DNA from: Oligella urethralis DSM 7531
GTDB lineage: Bacteria; Pseudomonadota; Gammaproteobacteria; Burkholderiales; Burkholderiaceae_B
Length of the DNA: 64,000 bases
Direction: 5' to 3'
Assembly: GCF_000372065.1 (NCBI RefSeq)
Contig: NZ_AQVB01000003.1
Span: forward strand, 62,196-126,195
Under the pieces are notes generated by a model. It did no database searches. It saw only the letters and a program-made list of their open reading frames with translations, and was not told where the DNA came from. Within the stretch, counting starts at the first letter, position 1. Every line of letters begins with the position of its first letter. Below, piece by piece: positions 39,736 through 48,522 of this stretch. The position numbers and the translations under genes were made by a program.

Positions 39736-40527
39736 CTACATTGTCGGACAAAAGGTCTCGGCCACTTGCAAGAACACACTCTCCTCGCTGTTGTTGCCTA
39801 GCTTCCAACCACCCTTAACCATTTGGGGCACATCAACAATACGCTCACCCAGGGCATCGGCTTCTGGGTAATAGCCAGCATCCTTAAAGCTCACATGCTG
39901 CTTGGCACAATCAATCATCACTTCACCCTTGACCGACTTGAAACCACCGTTTTGCGGTTCTTTAAAGTTTAATAAACCACTAAAAAACACATGATTATCC
40001 TCAACCCGAATGCTTTGTAAAGGCAAAATCAATTGCTGTGAGCTGGCTCGATACTCAGCCTGTTTACTCAATTGATAATCGGGCATCAAATTACCCTGGG
40101 CATCTAGATAAACGGCCAGGCCCTCAGCAAACTGCATCCGCAACTTAGCGCCTTTTGCACCTTTATAACCATTAAAAGTTAGCACACGTGTCGTTTCATC
40201 CCAGCTTAAGGAACCTTTATTGACTGAGACCTTGTGAGGTGATTCCAGTTCAGCCTCACGCATTAAATAGGTACCATCAGTGTTAAAAATAAGATCCACC
40301 TCAATACCAGCGCAATGACCGCAGGGAATCACGCCATTCCATCGTCCATCCCAATCCACGACGTGTGGGGTAGGATCAGCATTTGCTTGAGCTTCAGTGC
40401 TTGCATCGGCAACCGCCTCTTTGACACTCATCTCTTCAGCTTGCGGCTGAGCTTCTTTGGTCGCTTGAGCGCAGGCTGAGGATAAGGCAGCCACCACACC
40501 CACTAAAGCAAATGCTAACTTTTTCAT
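39736..40527 (-). CDS. NlpE-like copper-resistance/envelope-stress protein (long form)
   Basis: A 263-residue exported protein with an NlpE N-terminal domain. The start MKKLAFALVGVVAALSSAC is a signal sequence with a cysteine at 19, so it may be a lipoprotein, although the lipobox (SSAC) lacks the usual leucine at -3. The NlpE motif with CxxC is VIPCGHCAGIEVDLIFN (about 68-84), then a beta-rich barrel. The C-terminal half (after about 170) may be a second beta domain and ends in a single cysteine (AETFCPTM). In E. coli NlpE signals surface and copper stress to CpxA. A shorter paralogue lies just upstream. Confidence 0.8.
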   Translation of the reverse strand: MKKLAFALVGVVAALSSACAQATKEAQPQAEEMSVKEAVADASTEAQANADPTPHVVDWDGRWNGVIPCGHCAGIEVDLIFNTDGTYLMREAELESPHKVSVNKGSLSWDETTRVLTFNGYKGAKGAKLRMQFAEGLAVYLDAQGNLMPDYQLSKQAEYRASSQQLILPLQSIRVEDNHVFFSGLLNFKEPQNGGFKSVKGEVMIDCAKQHVSFKDAGYYPEADALGERIVDVPQMVKGGWKLGNNSEESVFLQVAETFCPTM

Positions 40528-40568: not shown

Positions 40569-41117
40569 TTACTGCGCTCTTTTTAACATATAATCAGCGC
40601 GTGCGTTACCTTCGGCGTCAATATATAGTAATTGACCATCTTTTAATAACAAGTGACGGCTTTCATTATCAGCAGTTGTTAAGGTAAGCACACCGTTAGT
40701 TGCGGTATAACTCGCCGTACCACTGGTACTAAATTCACCATCAGCCGACTCTCGATAGCTCTCGTTCATAGTAAAGGTACCGTCAGCATTAAGCGTTAGC
40801 TTAACATCAATGCCAGGGCAAGATGCACAAGGTACGGTACCAACCCATAGACCCTGAGCTTCTTGAGCCAAAGGTGCTGCCGCTTGGTTTGGTGCTTGAT
40901 TTGGCGTTTGGTTTGGCGCAACTTCAGTCACGGTCACTTTCTCATCAATACGCGCCTCACCCTCTGCAACTGGGGTCGCAGTCACCACACTCTCCGTGAT
41001 ACGGATTTCGGCATTACTGTTTAAACTATCGGTGGCCGCAACATCCGCAGCCGTTTGAGCATAAGCACTAGTCGCTAAGGCCACGGAAGTACCTAAAATA
41101 AATGCTAATTTCTTCAT
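40569..41117 (-). CDS. NlpE-like secreted protein (short form)
   Basis: A paralogue of the neighbouring gene, about 182 residues. The frame opens at 41189, but GGAG before the ATG at 41117 and the natural signal peptide MKKLAFILGTSVALATSAYA decide the start. It has no lipobox cysteine, so it should be released into the periplasm. A Thr/Val/Glu-rich region and a small APNQ repeat lead to the NlpE-type domain with VGTVPCASCPGIDVKLTLN (CxxC) and a YILKD-like C-terminus. The two genes are 41 bases apart and may be a duplication. Confidence 0.8.
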   Translation of the reverse strand: MKKLAFILGTSVALATSAYAQTAADVAATDSLNSNAEIRITESVVTATPVAEGEARIDEKVTVTEVAPNQTPNQAPNQAAAPLAQEAQGLWVGTVPCASCPGIDVKLTLNADGTFTMNESYRESADGEFSTSGTASYTATNGVLTLTTADNESRHLLLKDGQLLYIDAEGNARADYMLKRAQ

Positions 41118-41326
41118 CTTCTTACTCCTTAAATAAGTTGAAAATAAGCGAATAAAAAATCGTTTAATCTTTAACAAGATGCCTCTCATCTTAGCCTGTT
41201 ACAAAGTCAAAGATCATTAAATTTCGTTTTAAAAAGTAAGTAAATATCCTTTAAATCGATACAATTTCAGCCACATCATTGACTAAGCAATTGTTTTAAA
41301 AGGCTTAATTATGCAGCTTTCAGTAG

Positions 41327-43404: not shown

Positions 43405-44007
43405 TTATTTATTTAATAAATACTCCGGCAGAATCTGCTCCGGGGTCAAGCGTGGGCGATCGGCTGGGAGCTCACGCAAGGGTTGCACGCGCACCAAACT
43501 TGCTTTGCTGCGTCTGGCTAAGCGCTGATACTTGTGTGTACCTAAGATTTTGTGCCGCAAGTCCTCGTCACTTAATTGCTTAATGATTTTGGCAGGGGCA
43601 CCTGCCACTAGACTGTACTCAGGAATCATCATGCCCTTTTTCACAAAGGCCATGGCGCCAATGATGCTATTTGCGCCAACCGAGACCTCATCCATCACCA
43701 CCGCATTCATACCGACTAAGACATTACGTCCGATCACGCAACCATGCAGTACTGCACCGTGCCCAATATGACCATCCTCCTCAACAATGGTGTCTTGACG
43801 CCCGTCCCCATGAACTACGCAGGTGTCCTGGATATTTGAACCCTCTTTCATCACGATACGACCGAAATCACCACGTAAACTCGCCATCGGCCCCACATAC
43901 ACCCCAGGACCAATAATCACATCACCAATAATCACTGCCGTCGGGTGGACAAAGGCACTTTCATGAATGACCGGAACAATCCCATCAATCGCATAAATAT
44001 GATCCAT
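43405..44007 (-). CDS. Gamma-carbonic-anhydrase-family protein (PaaY/YrdA-like)
   Basis: A left-handed beta-helix, hexapeptide-repeat protein of about 200 residues. Repeats such as [20 protein letters not shown] and [18 protein letters not shown] are visible, with the histidine-bearing segments TCVVHGDG and [11 protein letters not shown] that bind zinc in this family. Members include real carbonic anhydrases, thioesterases (PaaY) and inactive forms, so catalysis is unproved. The frame opens at 44031. GAGGAGG placed before the ATG at 44007 decides the start. It precedes the YggS gene and may be cotranscribed with it. Confidence 0.88.
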
Positions 44008-44159
44008 CACTTCCTCCTCTATATTTAACAAATATCATAGCTTAAAACGCCACCTAATCTTTCTAATTACTAAATCATCACTTGAGAAAAGCCATAGCTC
44101 CGGCGCCATGCTATCTGCTACACTTAGCGTTATTTAAAACAACTAGTGGGAGACTGTAG

Positions 44160-44762
44160 ATGAGTGATAGTAAGTATTTAACGGCCGCAGAGACGGCACT
44201 CAAAGAAGCCGCCATACAAACGCTCTTTGAGCAAACCGCAGCCTACCTGCGAGAAGGCGTCACTCGGCAAAGCCTCACTCAAGTGATGCACGCCTTGATT
44301 GAGCTGGCTTCACATCAACATTGGTGGAGTCTAGCTCAGTATGAAGTACCCGATGACGAAAGCCTGCAAAACCGCTACTTAATTCACCAAGCATCGGATG
44401 ATGGCTTTACCCTCTATCTTAATGTGATGAAACCGGGCAAAAAAATCGTTCCCCACGATCACACCACGTGGGCCTGTATTGCTGGCGTAGTTGGCACCGA
44501 GACGAATTTTGTCTATGAGCGTCTTGATGACGGCGCGGTCCCAGGTAAAGCCACCTTAGCGCTAAGTGAGACCGTGTTAGTTGGACCGGGTAGCGGAATT
44601 GCTTTATTAGCCGATGATATTCATGCCGTTAAGATTGAGGATACGGTGATTCGCCATCTGCACTTTTACGGTCGTCCCTTGGAGCAACTGAGCGCTCGCA
44701 AAGCCTTTAATCTCGACGATAATACTTACACTAGTAAAGACCTTGGTGTCACCTCACGTTAA
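44160..44762 (+). CDS. Cysteine dioxygenase-family thiol dioxygenase
   Basis: A small cupin iron enzyme, 200 residues, that oxidises a thiol to its sulfinate with O2. The cupin ligands are H99 and H101 in KIVPHDHTTWAC and H155 in ADDIHAV. R72, 27 residues before the first histidine, may be the arginine that grips the cysteine carboxylate in true cysteine dioxygenases. 3-mercaptopropionate dioxygenase is a close relative and cannot be excluded. A multi-rhodanese gene starts 10 bases after the stop and ChrA follows, so it opens a sulfur operon. Confidence 0.88.
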   Translation: MSDSKYLTAAETALKEAAIQTLFEQTAAYLREGVTRQSLTQVMHALIELASHQHWWSLAQYEVPDDESLQNRYLIHQASDDGFTLYLNVMKPGKKIVPHDHTTWACIAGVVGTETNFVYERLDDGAVPGKATLALSETVLVGPGSGIALLADDIHAVKIEDTVIRHLHFYGRPLEQLSARKAFNLDDNTYTSKDLGVTSR

Positions 44763-44771
44763 TCTAGCAAG

Positions 44772-46412
44772 ATGAAAAAAATAAGTGCTTCAAGTTTAAA
44801 AAAACTACTCCGCTCCGGTCAGGAAATAGCATTGCTGGATGTGCGTGAACATGGTCAATATGGGGCCTGTCATTTATTCTTTGCAGTTTCTATTCCCTAC
44901 AGTCTATTAGAATATCGGGTAAGGGAATTAGTCCCCAATCTACATACCCCGATTGTCTTCTATACCAATGCGCAACAACACCAACTCATGCAGCAAGTCA
45001 GTGAGCGCTTAAAGAGCCTAGCTTATGACAATGTGGCTGTCTTAGAGGGTGGCATTGAGGCTTGGCAAGAGGCTGGCTACAACACCTTTGCTGGGGTTAA
45101 TTTGCCCAGCAAAACCTTTGGTGAATTAGCAGAACTGAAGTACCGCACACCTCACCTAAGCGCTCAGCAACTGCATGCCCTGATGAATGATCCGAGTGCC
45201 AAGCTATTAATGCTCGATGGACGACCGCTGGCAGAGTACCAAAAAATGAATATTCCTGGTGCCATCTGTTGCCCTAACGGTGAATTGGCTTTGCGGGCGA
45301 CACAAATGGTGGCCGATGAAAGTACCACCATCGTGATTAATTGCGCCGGTAGAACACGCAGCATTATTGGCGCTCAAAGCCTGATTAACTTTGGCATTAA
45401 GAATCCCGTTTATGCCCTAGAAAATGGCACCCAAGGCTGGTATTTAGAAGATTTTAAGCTGGAACACGGCGCAACTCGGCAGTATCCTGAAGCCATTGAT
45501 AGCTCCCTCCAAAGCGCTTTGCAAGTCAAAGGGCAGGCACTACAACAGCGCTTCGAACTGCCAACCATCACGCTTGAAGATTTGATAAATTTACTGGCAT
45601 CAGAGCAAGGCACGACCTATGTATGCGATATTCGCACCCAAGAGGAGTTTAAGCGTGCTGCTTGGTCAAGCATCGTTCGTCACACACCTGGCGGTCAGTT
45701 AATCCAAGCCACGGATGAGTTTATCGGGGTCAGAAATGCCAACCTCGTCTTAATTGATACCGACGGTATTCGTGCCCCTGTCGTTGCTTCATGGTTAAAG
45801 CAACTCGGTTGGTCAGTCTATTTGCTGCCGCTCAGCGAGGGCACTAAGGACTTGAGCAAACGACTCCCCGAACGGCCTAGCGTTGAACTTGTTTTAAGAC
45901 ACAGCACTGAGATAGCAGCCGAGGCTCTAGAGGATTTTATCCAGCAACACGCCGATTTGCTAATTGCCGACACACGCAACAGCATGGATTTCAAAAAGCA
46001 GCATTTAAACAACGCCATCTGGCTCAATCGTAGCCATTTGCTGCATCAACATGAACTGCTACAACCCCTATTCAATGCGCCTAAATCCCAAGCCATTCTC
46101 TTAATGGGTGACAATCAGGCTAAAAATAGACTGTTAGCGGCCGATCTGGCGCATTTAGGCTTTAAGCATATCTATTTAGTCCAGATTGAGCCAAAGTTTT
46201 TTGCTAATACTAATCATGCACTGAGCCAAGACGACGCGCTACTGAGTGAAGCGGATTGCATCGACTATTTGTTTTTCTTGCATGATAGACATCAGTACAA
46301 TAAGGCCGCCGCAAGGCAATACCTTAAATGGGAAACCGACCTTATATCTAAAACTGATGAAGATGAAAAGGCCGTCTTTAACTTTAGCTACGCAAAACCT
46401 CATAGCAATTAA
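44772..46412 (+). CDS. Four-domain rhodanese-like protein, one active site
   Basis: A 546-residue protein with four rhodanese folds in tandem (about 5-105, 118-230, 262-355, 370-460). Only the second has a catalytic cysteine, C191 in VINCAGRTRSII. The corresponding loops of domains 1 (FYTNAQQHQ), 3 (LIDTDGIRAPV) and 4 (LMGDNQAKN) lack it. It should move sulfane sulfur, perhaps to or from thiosulfate. Its position between a thiol dioxygenase and ChrA suggests a role in thiol sulfur breakdown. A C-terminal helical tail after about 480 is unassigned. Confidence 0.88.
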   Translation: MKKISASSLKKLLRSGQEIALLDVREHGQYGACHLFFAVSIPYSLLEYRVRELVPNLHTPIVFYTNAQQHQLMQQVSERLKSLAYDNVAVLEGGIEAWQEAGYNTFAGVNLPSKTFGELAELKYRTPHLSAQQLHALMNDPSAKLLMLDGRPLAEYQKMNIPGAICCPNGELALRATQMVADESTTIVINCAGRTRSIIGAQSLINFGIKNPVYALENGTQGWYLEDFKLEHGATRQYPEAIDSSLQSALQVKGQALQQRFELPTITLEDLINLLASEQGTTYVCDIRTQEEFKRAAWSSIVRHTPGGQLIQATDEFIGVRNANLVLIDTDGIRAPVVASWLKQLGWSVYLLPLSEGTKDLSKRLPERPSVELVLRHSTEIAAEALEDFIQQHADLLIADTRNSMDFKKQHLNNAIWLNRSHLLHQHELLQPLFNAPKSQAILLMGDNQAKNRLLAADLAHLGFKHIYLVQIEPKFFANTNHALSQDDALLSEADCIDYLFFLHDRHQYNKAAARQYLKWETDLISKTDEDEKAVFNFSYAKPHSN

Positions 46413-46423
46413 AGGAGTCGACT

Positions 46424-47605
46424 GTGTCTACCAACAGCCCCTGGTCCGTGTTTCTTATTTTCTTACGCCTAGGGCTAACCTCCTTTGGTGGTCCGGTTGC
46501 TCATCTAGGTTATTTTCGTGATGAACTGATCGTCAGAAGACGCTGGATGACAGAGCAACAATACGCTGACTTAATTGCTTTATGTCATTTTTTACCCGGC
46601 CCCTCCAGCAGTCAAGTGGGTATGGGCTTGGGTATTTCGCAAGCCGGCTATGCCGGTGCCTTTGCTGCCTGGCTGGGCTTTACCATGCCCTCGGCGCTGT
46701 TGCTTATACTGATTGCTTACGCCATCAATAGCGAGAGCGCTCTGCTCCCGCCCTCAGTCTTACATGGTTTAGCCATTGTGACCGTGGCTGTCATTAGCCA
46801 AGCGGTGTGGGGCATGGGGCGTAGTCTCTGCCCAGACAAATCGCGTTTTACCCTAATGATCGCCGCCACCTGCTATTTACTGCTATTTCCATCGACTTGG
46901 GGTCAGATCCTGGTCATGCTATTAGCAGCCCTCATTGGCGTAGTGTGCTTTAAGCCAGAAACGCAAAGGCAAGATGCCGAGCTCAAAAGTCCAATGTCAA
47001 AACGTCACGGACTCCTGTTTTTAAGCCTCTTTTTCATACTTTTATTACTACTGCCACTGGCCGCAAAACTATTCCCCAACCAGGCGCTGATACTGTTTGA
47101 CGCCTTTTATCGCGCCGGCTCCTTGGTCTTTGGCGGAGGCCACGTGATGTTGCCTTTATTACAGGCAGAAACCGTACCTTCCGGTCTAGTCAGCGCAGAG
47201 GCCTTTATGGCAGGGTATGGTGCAACACAAGCCGTGCCAGGTCCTTTATTTACCTTTGCCGCCTTTTTAGGGGCTTCAATGCATACAGCTTACGGTCCCT
47301 TTATCACCGGGATGCTTTGCTTATTAGCCATTTTCTTACCCTCCTTTTTATTAGTGTTGGGCGCCTTGCCTTTTTGGGAGAGTTTACGGCGCTTAGGCCC
47401 TATTCGTGCCGCCTTAATGGGCGTCAATGCGGCGGTAGTCGGTCTGTTATTGGCGGCGCTTTATCGTCATGCTTGGCTAGATGCGATCGACTCCAGTCAA
47501 GATTTTGCACTTGCTTTAATTGCGCTCTGTGCGCTTATGATTTGGCAACTACCGCCTTGGTTGGTAGTGATTGGCGGTAGTCTCATTGCCTGGTTGCTCT
47601 ATTAA
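46424..47605 (+). CDS. chrA: ChrA-family anion transporter
   Basis: A CHR-family transporter, 393 residues, with the two homologous halves fused (FLRLGLTSFGGPVAHLGYF near 10 and DAFYRAGSLVFGGGHVMLPL near 226). About ten to twelve hydrophobic helices are apparent. Known members export chromate, probably using the sulfate-like shape of the anion. AAAGGAG precedes a GTG start at 46424. The coding region begins 12 bases after the rhodanese stop, so the three genes form one operon. In this setting sulfate or sulfite could be the real substrate, which is inference. Confidence 0.9.
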   Translation: MSTNSPWSVFLIFLRLGLTSFGGPVAHLGYFRDELIVRRRWMTEQQYADLIALCHFLPGPSSSQVGMGLGISQAGYAGAFAAWLGFTMPSALLLILIAYAINSESALLPPSVLHGLAIVTVAVISQAVWGMGRSLCPDKSRFTLMIAATCYLLLFPSTWGQILVMLLAALIGVVCFKPETQRQDAELKSPMSKRHGLLFLSLFFILLLLLPLAAKLFPNQALILFDAFYRAGSLVFGGGHVMLPLLQAETVPSGLVSAEAFMAGYGATQAVPGPLFTFAAFLGASMHTAYGPFITGMLCLLAIFLPSFLLVLGALPFWESLRRLGPIRAALMGVNAAVVGLLLAALYRHAWLDAIDSSQDFALALIALCALMIWQLPPWLVVIGGSLIAWLLY

Positions 47606-47619
47606 CAATTAAAGCGTCT

Positions 47620-48522
47620 CTACTTCGTTGTTTTCACCAAAGCACAGGCCGCTTGCTCACCCAATTCACAGGCCTTAAGAAAATAGCCCTGCGCTGTTGC
47701 CGCATCAGCGACTGTGCCTAAGCCCTGTTGATACATTTGCCCAAGGCGATAATTAGCGCCGGCATGATCTTGGGCCGCTGCCTCAGCATACAGCGTCAAC
47801 GCAGCCGCATCATCACGTGGCAGCTTAAGCCCTTCAAAATACAGCGTCGCTAAGTGATACTGTGCTTCTACAAAACCCAGCGAAGCCGCATTTTTATACC
47901 AGCGCAAGGCGTTTTGCAGATTCACTGCAACACCCAGTCCCTGGTCATAAATGGTCGCCAGATTATAAATCGCCCGCGGATAACCACGCGCTGCCGCCGC
48001 ACGAATCAACTCGCGGCCCTTGGCATAATCCTGCTGCACACCCCGCCCCTGCATATACAGCATACCTAAGCCATTTTGGGCAATGGGATCCTCACGCTCA
48101 GCAGCATGACCATACCATTGAAAGGCTTTTTCATAATTGATGGTGATGCCACGCCCCTCTTCATACATTTGCGCTAAAAAGGTCTGCGCCTCGGTTAAAC
48201 CAGCCTCTGCCGATAATTTAAACCAACGAAAAGCCTCTGCTTGATTAATGGCGGTACCTAAACCATTTTGATAAATCACGCCCAATAATCCTTGCGCCTC
48301 CGCATCACCTGCCGCAGCAGCCTGCAATAGCCACTTATGGGCTTCACTATAATTACGCTCGGACGCATTGCCATTAAGTAAACGCGCCCCCAATTGCCTT
48401 TGCGCAACCACTTCGCCAGACTCGGCACGCTCATATAAAGCATCACTACCTTTTGAACCAGAACTAAAGGAGATAAAATAAAAAGCGGCAACGCAGACAA
48501 AAATTAAGATAAAAAATCGCAT
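47620..48522 (-). CDS. Sel1-repeat protein
   Basis: A 300-residue protein with an N-terminal hydrophobic anchor or signal (FFILIFVCVAAFYFISF, about 3-19) and about seven Sel1-like repeats of 36 residues, with the pattern LGxxYxxGxGVxxDYxxAxxWYxxAAxxG. Such alpha-solenoids scaffold protein complexes, often in the periplasm. The stop faces the chrA stop 15 bases away. No partner can be named from context. Confidence 0.88.
   Translation of the reverse strand: MRFFILIFVCVAAFYFISFSSGSKGSDALYERAESGEVVAQRQLGARLLNGNASERNYSEAHKWLLQAAAAGDAEAQGLLGVIYQNGLGTAINQAEAFRWFKLSAEAGLTEAQTFLAQMYEEGRGITINYEKAFQWYGHAAEREDPIAQNGLGMLYMQGRGVQQDYAKGRELIRAAAARGYPRAIYNLATIYDQGLGVAVNLQNALRWYKNAASLGFVEAQYHLATLYFEGLKLPRDDAAALTLYAEAAAQDHAGANYRLGQMYQQGLGTVADAATAQGYFLKACELGEQAACALVKTTK

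Follow-up and report, generated by a model that had tools for sequence, protein, structure and literature searches.

The mercaptosuccinate dioxygenase (Msdo) cluster of Advenella mimigardefordensis DPN7 and Variovorax paradoxus B4 and the 3mdo-tst unit of Pseudomonas are the closest described relatives of the locus reported here. The Advenella cluster encodes an Msdo-type enzyme, a cystathionine beta-lyase, a rhodanese, an amino-acid ABC transporter, and a LysR regulator; the Advenella homologue MIM_c37420, when expressed, oxidized mercaptosuccinate, and the product splits spontaneously into succinate and sulfite (PMC5373536). In the 3mdo-tst unit (PA2602-PA2603; P. protegens c14110-c14100), a thiol dioxygenase gene precedes a gene for a sulfurtransferase, and the PAO1 homologue of the latter is annotated as a thiosulfate sulfurtransferase. 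In P. protegens, tst deletion had no significant effect on 3-mercaptopropionate (PMC12947264). Here, we analyzed a 64,000-nucleotide stretch of Oligella urethralis DSM 7531 (contig NZ_AQVB01000003.1, positions 62,196 to 126,195; hereafter the window), in which an Msdo-type dioxygenase gene (44160 to 44762), a gene for a four-module rhodanese-like sulfurtransferase (44772 to 46412), and chrA, encoding a long-chain CHR anion transporter (46424 to 47605), follow one another on the plus strand. The window locus shares an Msdo-type dioxygenase and a rhodanese-domain protein with the Msdo cluster and differs from it in having chrA instead of neighboring LysR, cystathionine beta-lyase, and amino-acid ABC transporter genes, none of which is present at the locus. 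It shares its first two gene types and their order with 3mdo-tst but differs in its dioxygenase, which is only weakly similar to the 3-mercaptopropionate type found there. We read the locus as a known operon in a lineage-specific form: the pair of dioxygenase and rhodanese genes is common and has been published, whereas its linkage to chrA is narrow. The interpretation that we favor, and hold to be somewhat probable, is that a divergent promoter region is followed first by a reduced Msdo-rhodanese operon and then by the start of a chrA gene that most of the genus keeps and that ChrA has an oxyanion job of its own.

The difference in linkage was evident in three samples. Across 151 genomes of the family, searched with E-value cutoffs of 1e-20 for the rhodanese, 1e-5 for the dioxygenase, and 1e-10 for ChrA, the rhodanese was found in 73, the dioxygenase in 91, and ChrA in 110. 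A total of 56 places matched the dioxygenase strongly (E value of 1.8e-50 or better), and 52 of these, counted by eye, had the rhodanese within 1.5 kb; those without it were in G009, G056, and G020 and a second copy in G113. In comparison, chrA was near 2 of the 56, in the window genome and in its congener G057 (together, the carriers). Among the best 80 of 548 confirmed named rhodanese loci, viewed with flanks of up to 6 kb that were in some cases cut by contig ends, the dioxygenase was present at 71, LysR at 65, cystathionine beta-lyase at 61, and an ABC binding protein at 30, while chrA was present at one (L061), in which the three-gene locus of the congener G057 is seen again, recorded as "MAG: Alcaligenaceae bacterium isolate S5R_St_25" (MAG, metagenome-assembled genome). 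Five Pseudomonas loci are also among these 80, and chrA is at none of them. A third sample, of 250 genomes of the taxonomic order, in which G057 was not among the matches, was searched with E-value cutoffs of 1e-25 for the dioxygenase and 1e-40 for ChrA; the dioxygenase was found in 11 genomes, ChrA in 35, and both in five (G000, G003, G045, G052, and G189), with the two genes adjacent in the window genome only. Together, the samples ruled out a broadly conserved three-gene module, and conservation of the gene order, which the original prediction had offered as a check, held only for the window genome and G057 among the 151 family genomes. A search of titles and abstract openings in the open-licence literature likewise returned no work describing chrA in an operon with a thiol dioxygenase.

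In five family genomes, more distant matches of the dioxygenase and the rhodanese lay within one open reading frame of 702 to 772 amino acids (G003:C6, G118:C1, G075:C1, G008:C1, and G092:C1), one such frame being read as a single 737-amino-acid protein (L152:3180-5393). A natural fusion of this kind supports a functional link between these two genes. At three other loci (L084, L110, and L127), the same rhodanese had no dioxygenase nearby and was placed after what we take, from N termini, to be a gidA-gidB-parA-parB-like block.

The identity of the dioxygenase (200 amino acids) is that of an Msdo-type enzyme. Its best solved-structure match was mercaptosuccinate dioxygenase (PDB 8vni; E value of 2.9e-52), with 49% identity over the aligned stretch in the Msdo comparison, and structures of cysteine and 3-mercaptopropionate dioxygenases matched at 3.4e-6 and weaker. 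With 8vni so far ahead, assignment to the cysteine dioxygenase or 3-mercaptopropionate dioxygenase type was ruled out. No Pfam or NCBIfam model matched the protein at an E value of 0.01. Residues H99, H101, H155, H168, and Y170 were invariant among nine aligned sequences, and the first three are presumably the metal-binding histidines of the cupin fold. Sulfur oxidation by a thiol dioxygenase, as originally predicted, was therefore right in kind, but judging by its relatives, the enzyme is predicted to oxidize mercaptosuccinate rather than cysteine, most likely by way of sulfinosuccinate, which would give succinate and sulfite.

The rhodanese (546 amino acids) matched a thiosulfate sulfurtransferase structure (PDB 1yt8), which we take to be Pseudomonas aeruginosa PA2603, over residues 10 to 531 (E value of 6.4e-92), and PF00581 was found in three stretches. 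These results bear out a sulfurtransferase-like protein with four rhodanese modules but with only one catalytic-type cysteine. The catalytic-type loop is confined to module 2 (C191-A-G-R-T-R-S) and was invariant as CAGRTRS among 12 sequences, while modules 1, 3, and 4 of the window protein have no cysteine at equivalent places. It is also conceivable that the locus is a chromate-resistance operon with the rhodanese in the part of ChrE, since NCBIfam includes a rhodanese family of that name annotated as a chromate-resistance protein. We consider this scarcely credible. The window rhodanese scored 16.3 bits against a ChrE cutoff of 120, which ruled out its being ChrE, and at other loci the four-module rhodanese goes with thiol dioxygenases. 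The nearest genes, whose labels are partly our own assumption, showed no chrB, and no search for chrB was made in the window or genome; nor was chrB, chrC, or chrF directly beside chrA, where the direct neighbors were identified as other genes and beyond which no search was made.

ChrA (393 amino acids) contains PF02417 (Chromate_transp) twice in one chain (137.4 and 116.7 bits; cutoff, 28.6) and exceeded the cutoff of TIGR00937 (332.8 bits; cutoff, 171.7), confirming the predicted CHR anion transporter as one of the long-chain type. It is the sole CHR protein found in the genome, and no solved structure matched it by sequence at an E value of 0.01. A total of 2,373 records in a plasmid collection matched ChrA, of which 1,898 had 60 to 80% identity and one had 80 to 90%. 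Twenty-five records were taken in even steps through this list, the 80 to 90% record not being among them; 20 were annotated as chrA and one as a putative chromate transport protein. The best of these were ~62 to 65% identical to ChrA and mostly annotated for chromate efflux, with 62.7% identity in 16 of the 25, and the lower ones were 24 to 38% identical. In G002 and G059, relatives of ChrA adjoin what appear to us to be arsenic-resistance-like genes. By its domains, model scores, and plasmid relatives, ChrA is an ordinary-looking member of the chromate-exporter type for which chromate efflux is predicted; it differs from described long-chain chromate transporters in standing behind a dioxygenase-rhodanese pair, with no chromate-type partners seen adjacent.

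The position of chrA in the genus indicates that it is probably present independently of the pair, since in four congeners the same slot contains chrA but not the pair. Eight genomes of the genus, including that of the window, were searched; ChrA was found in seven and the rhodanese in two, and G022 had neither. The slot is bounded upstream by a divergent hexapeptide-repeat protein gene (43405 to 44031, minus strand; PF00132), presumably of the gamma-carbonic-anhydrase type, which also neighbors it in G057, G084, G125, G106, and G151. Downstream, chrA is followed by a convergent gene for a Sel1-repeat protein (47620 to 48522, minus strand; PF08238); this gene also follows chrA in G057, G142, G084, G125, G106, and G151, either immediately or with a gene of the SBF (bile-acid-symporter) family in between. 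The order in G084, G125, and G151 is hexapeptide protein, ChrA, SBF-family transporter, and Sel1, with the pair absent; G106 has the same neighbors of chrA, with the two sides on two contigs, and also lacks the pair. The SBF-family gene (L043:5880-6809 and L150:7586-8515) is 3' of chrA in G084, G106, G151, and probably G125, its label resting on Pfam in G084 and G106, on similarity in G151, and on the first residues in G125. A tree of three proteins from six of the genus genomes (G142 and G022 left out) placed the carriers together (support of 1.0), with G084 beside them (0.999). Thus, either an ancestor of the carriers acquired the pair, placed between chrA and the divergent promoter region, or other lineages lost it, and gain would be the simpler course.

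Relatives outside the genus are compatible with a reduced operon. A tree built from 25 selected rhodaneses grouped those of the two carriers with Pelistega (0.997) and next with A. faeciporci and A. alkanexedens (0.951). Advenella species other than A. mimigardefordensis have rhodaneses that are 50 to 52% identical to that of the window. A. incenata and A. kashmirensis have the full cluster. At the A. faeciporci and A. alkanexedens loci, genes for LysR, the dioxygenase, and the rhodanese are present without an intervening lyase gene, on contigs that end within ~0.3 kb past the rhodanese, and the Pelistega locus has the pair with neither LysR nor lyase over the ~1.2 kb seen downstream, its rhodanese frame looking broken near the end. 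Stepwise loss of the other cluster genes would fit this series. The LysR of A. faeciporci, used as a query without a positive control, had no match at an E value of 1e-30 in the eight genus genomes. Foreign base composition of the pair was not seen: its GC content at third codon positions is 0.48 and 0.47, compared with 0.45 to 0.47 for NhaA, HprK, and RapZ and 0.51 for chrA.

Several observations weigh against this history and against independence of ChrA. In the ChrA tree, G057 groups with G142 (0.927), and G142, like both carriers, has no SBF-family gene beside chrA, which there directly adjoins Sel1. The G142 contig ends inside chrA, leaving the upstream side unseen, so the pair could have stood there; the rhodanese was not found in this genome, which is 88% complete. 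The history may therefore include a loss, and the carriers may number three of the eight genomes rather than two. In addition, the three-gene order is kept in two species whose flanking genes are ~79% identical in protein, and the chrA and rhodanese frames of G057 overlap at the end of the latter, so coexpression may be selected. The neighbors NhaA, YggS, hexapeptide protein, and Sel1 (labels partly presumed by us) are likewise kept in place in G057, however, and retention of order over two species is thus not special to the trio.

If a reduced operon beside a resident chrA is the correct reading, the dioxygenase would most likely convert a small thiol bearing a carboxyl group, either mercaptosuccinate or a natural compound like it, to a sulfinate and then to a carboxylate and sulfite. 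The rhodanese, with its one catalytic-type site, would probably pass sulfane sulfur, for example by exchange with the released sulfite; both steps are projected from relatives. ChrA, probably on the same transcript, would keep its own role as an oxyanion exporter of the chromate type, and other genes would handle the sulfite, for example, SorT/SorU and perhaps a TauE-family exporter. The genome encodes SorT (642.5 bits; cutoff, 570) and SorU (101.3 bits; cutoff, 100) side by side, by NCBIfam, together with four TauE-family proteins, so that sulfite removal can be explained without ChrA. Of the eight genus genomes, the two carriers and G142 have a SorT above the cutoff, and G106 has a broken partial match; we set SorT aside as a partner whose distribution follows that of the pair, since three genomes of eight are too few to be informative.

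The original prediction assigned ChrA a different task, the export of sulfite or sulfate, inferred from adjacency, and this found no support. That ChrA exports sulfite, sulfate, or sulfinate from the pair, the three genes forming one pathway of thiol-sulfur disposal, we regard as unlikely, and that a CHR transporter was drawn into a thiol-dioxygenase operon in this genus and now exports the sulfur anions made there seems to us decidedly unlikely. The tight gene spacing in both carrier species would suit such export, as would the need for sulfite to reach SorT/SorU, which we take to be periplasmic, and the presence of SorT in both carriers. Sulfate movement or co-extrusion has also been proposed for CHR proteins, going by the title of Nies 1998 and the discussion in PMC8940164. 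However, gene order lends little support to sulfite or sulfate export because linkage to chrA is rare, with no chrA at the other dioxygenase-rhodanese loci examined besides the two carriers, and because congeners without the pair retain chrA. SorT is also over its cutoff in G142, where no rhodanese was found; the four TauE-family proteins are possible sulfite exporters; and no work on sulfite export by CHR proteins appeared in the same literature search. If true, sulfur export would give a biological sulfur substrate to a family known for chromate. In our view, it is unclear what CHR transporters ordinarily do at sites free of chromate pollution, and a true sulfur-anion role would help account for how common they are. 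Since close relatives have chrA with and without the pair, the locus is a clean place to ask about this role. As matters stand, it mainly shows how an arrangement resembling an operon can form next to a gene already in place, and it cautions against inferring function from the gene order of one genome.

ChrA might instead act as a guard, expelling chromate admitted when thiol use under a lack of sulfate raises sulfate uptake. SrpC of a cyanobacterium is reportedly a sulfur-regulated relative of chrA, although our literature search did not confirm this. That sulfate transporters let chromate in is stated in PMC8940164, but the same source describes a Bacillus CHR pair that is repressed, not induced, under limited sulfur uptake. 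A guard role would also lean on the same weak adjacency, with chrA at one of the best 80 of the 548 named rhodanese loci, and we judge it very unlikely.

Joint transcription of the three genes is likely. The three adjoining open reading frames, predicted to be spaced by about 10 bases, were confirmed, with gaps of 9 bases between dioxygenase and rhodanese and 11 bases between rhodanese and chrA, and the ribosome-site-like AAGGAG precedes the GTG start of chrA. No terminator-like site was found between them on the plus strand in a promoter and terminator scan, which says little because the overall number of sites was no higher than in shuffled sequence. The divergent intergenic stretch (44032 to 44159) is a probable promoter region: it contains TGCTACACT, which resembles an extended -10 element, and like motifs occur 5' of chrA in G125 and G106. 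We infer this promoter from comparison by eye only, as a consensus scan gave none there. Elsewhere around the slot, G057 has three open reading frames between its YbaK and Sel1 genes (L041:1859-4659) that are absent from the window; one presumably begins like a DNA adenine methylase, and the three are perhaps a small defense island. Farther upstream in the window, two neighboring genes on the minus strand (40569 to 41189 and 39736 to 40527) encode proteins with NlpE N-terminal domains, one of which also matches surface-adhesin E.

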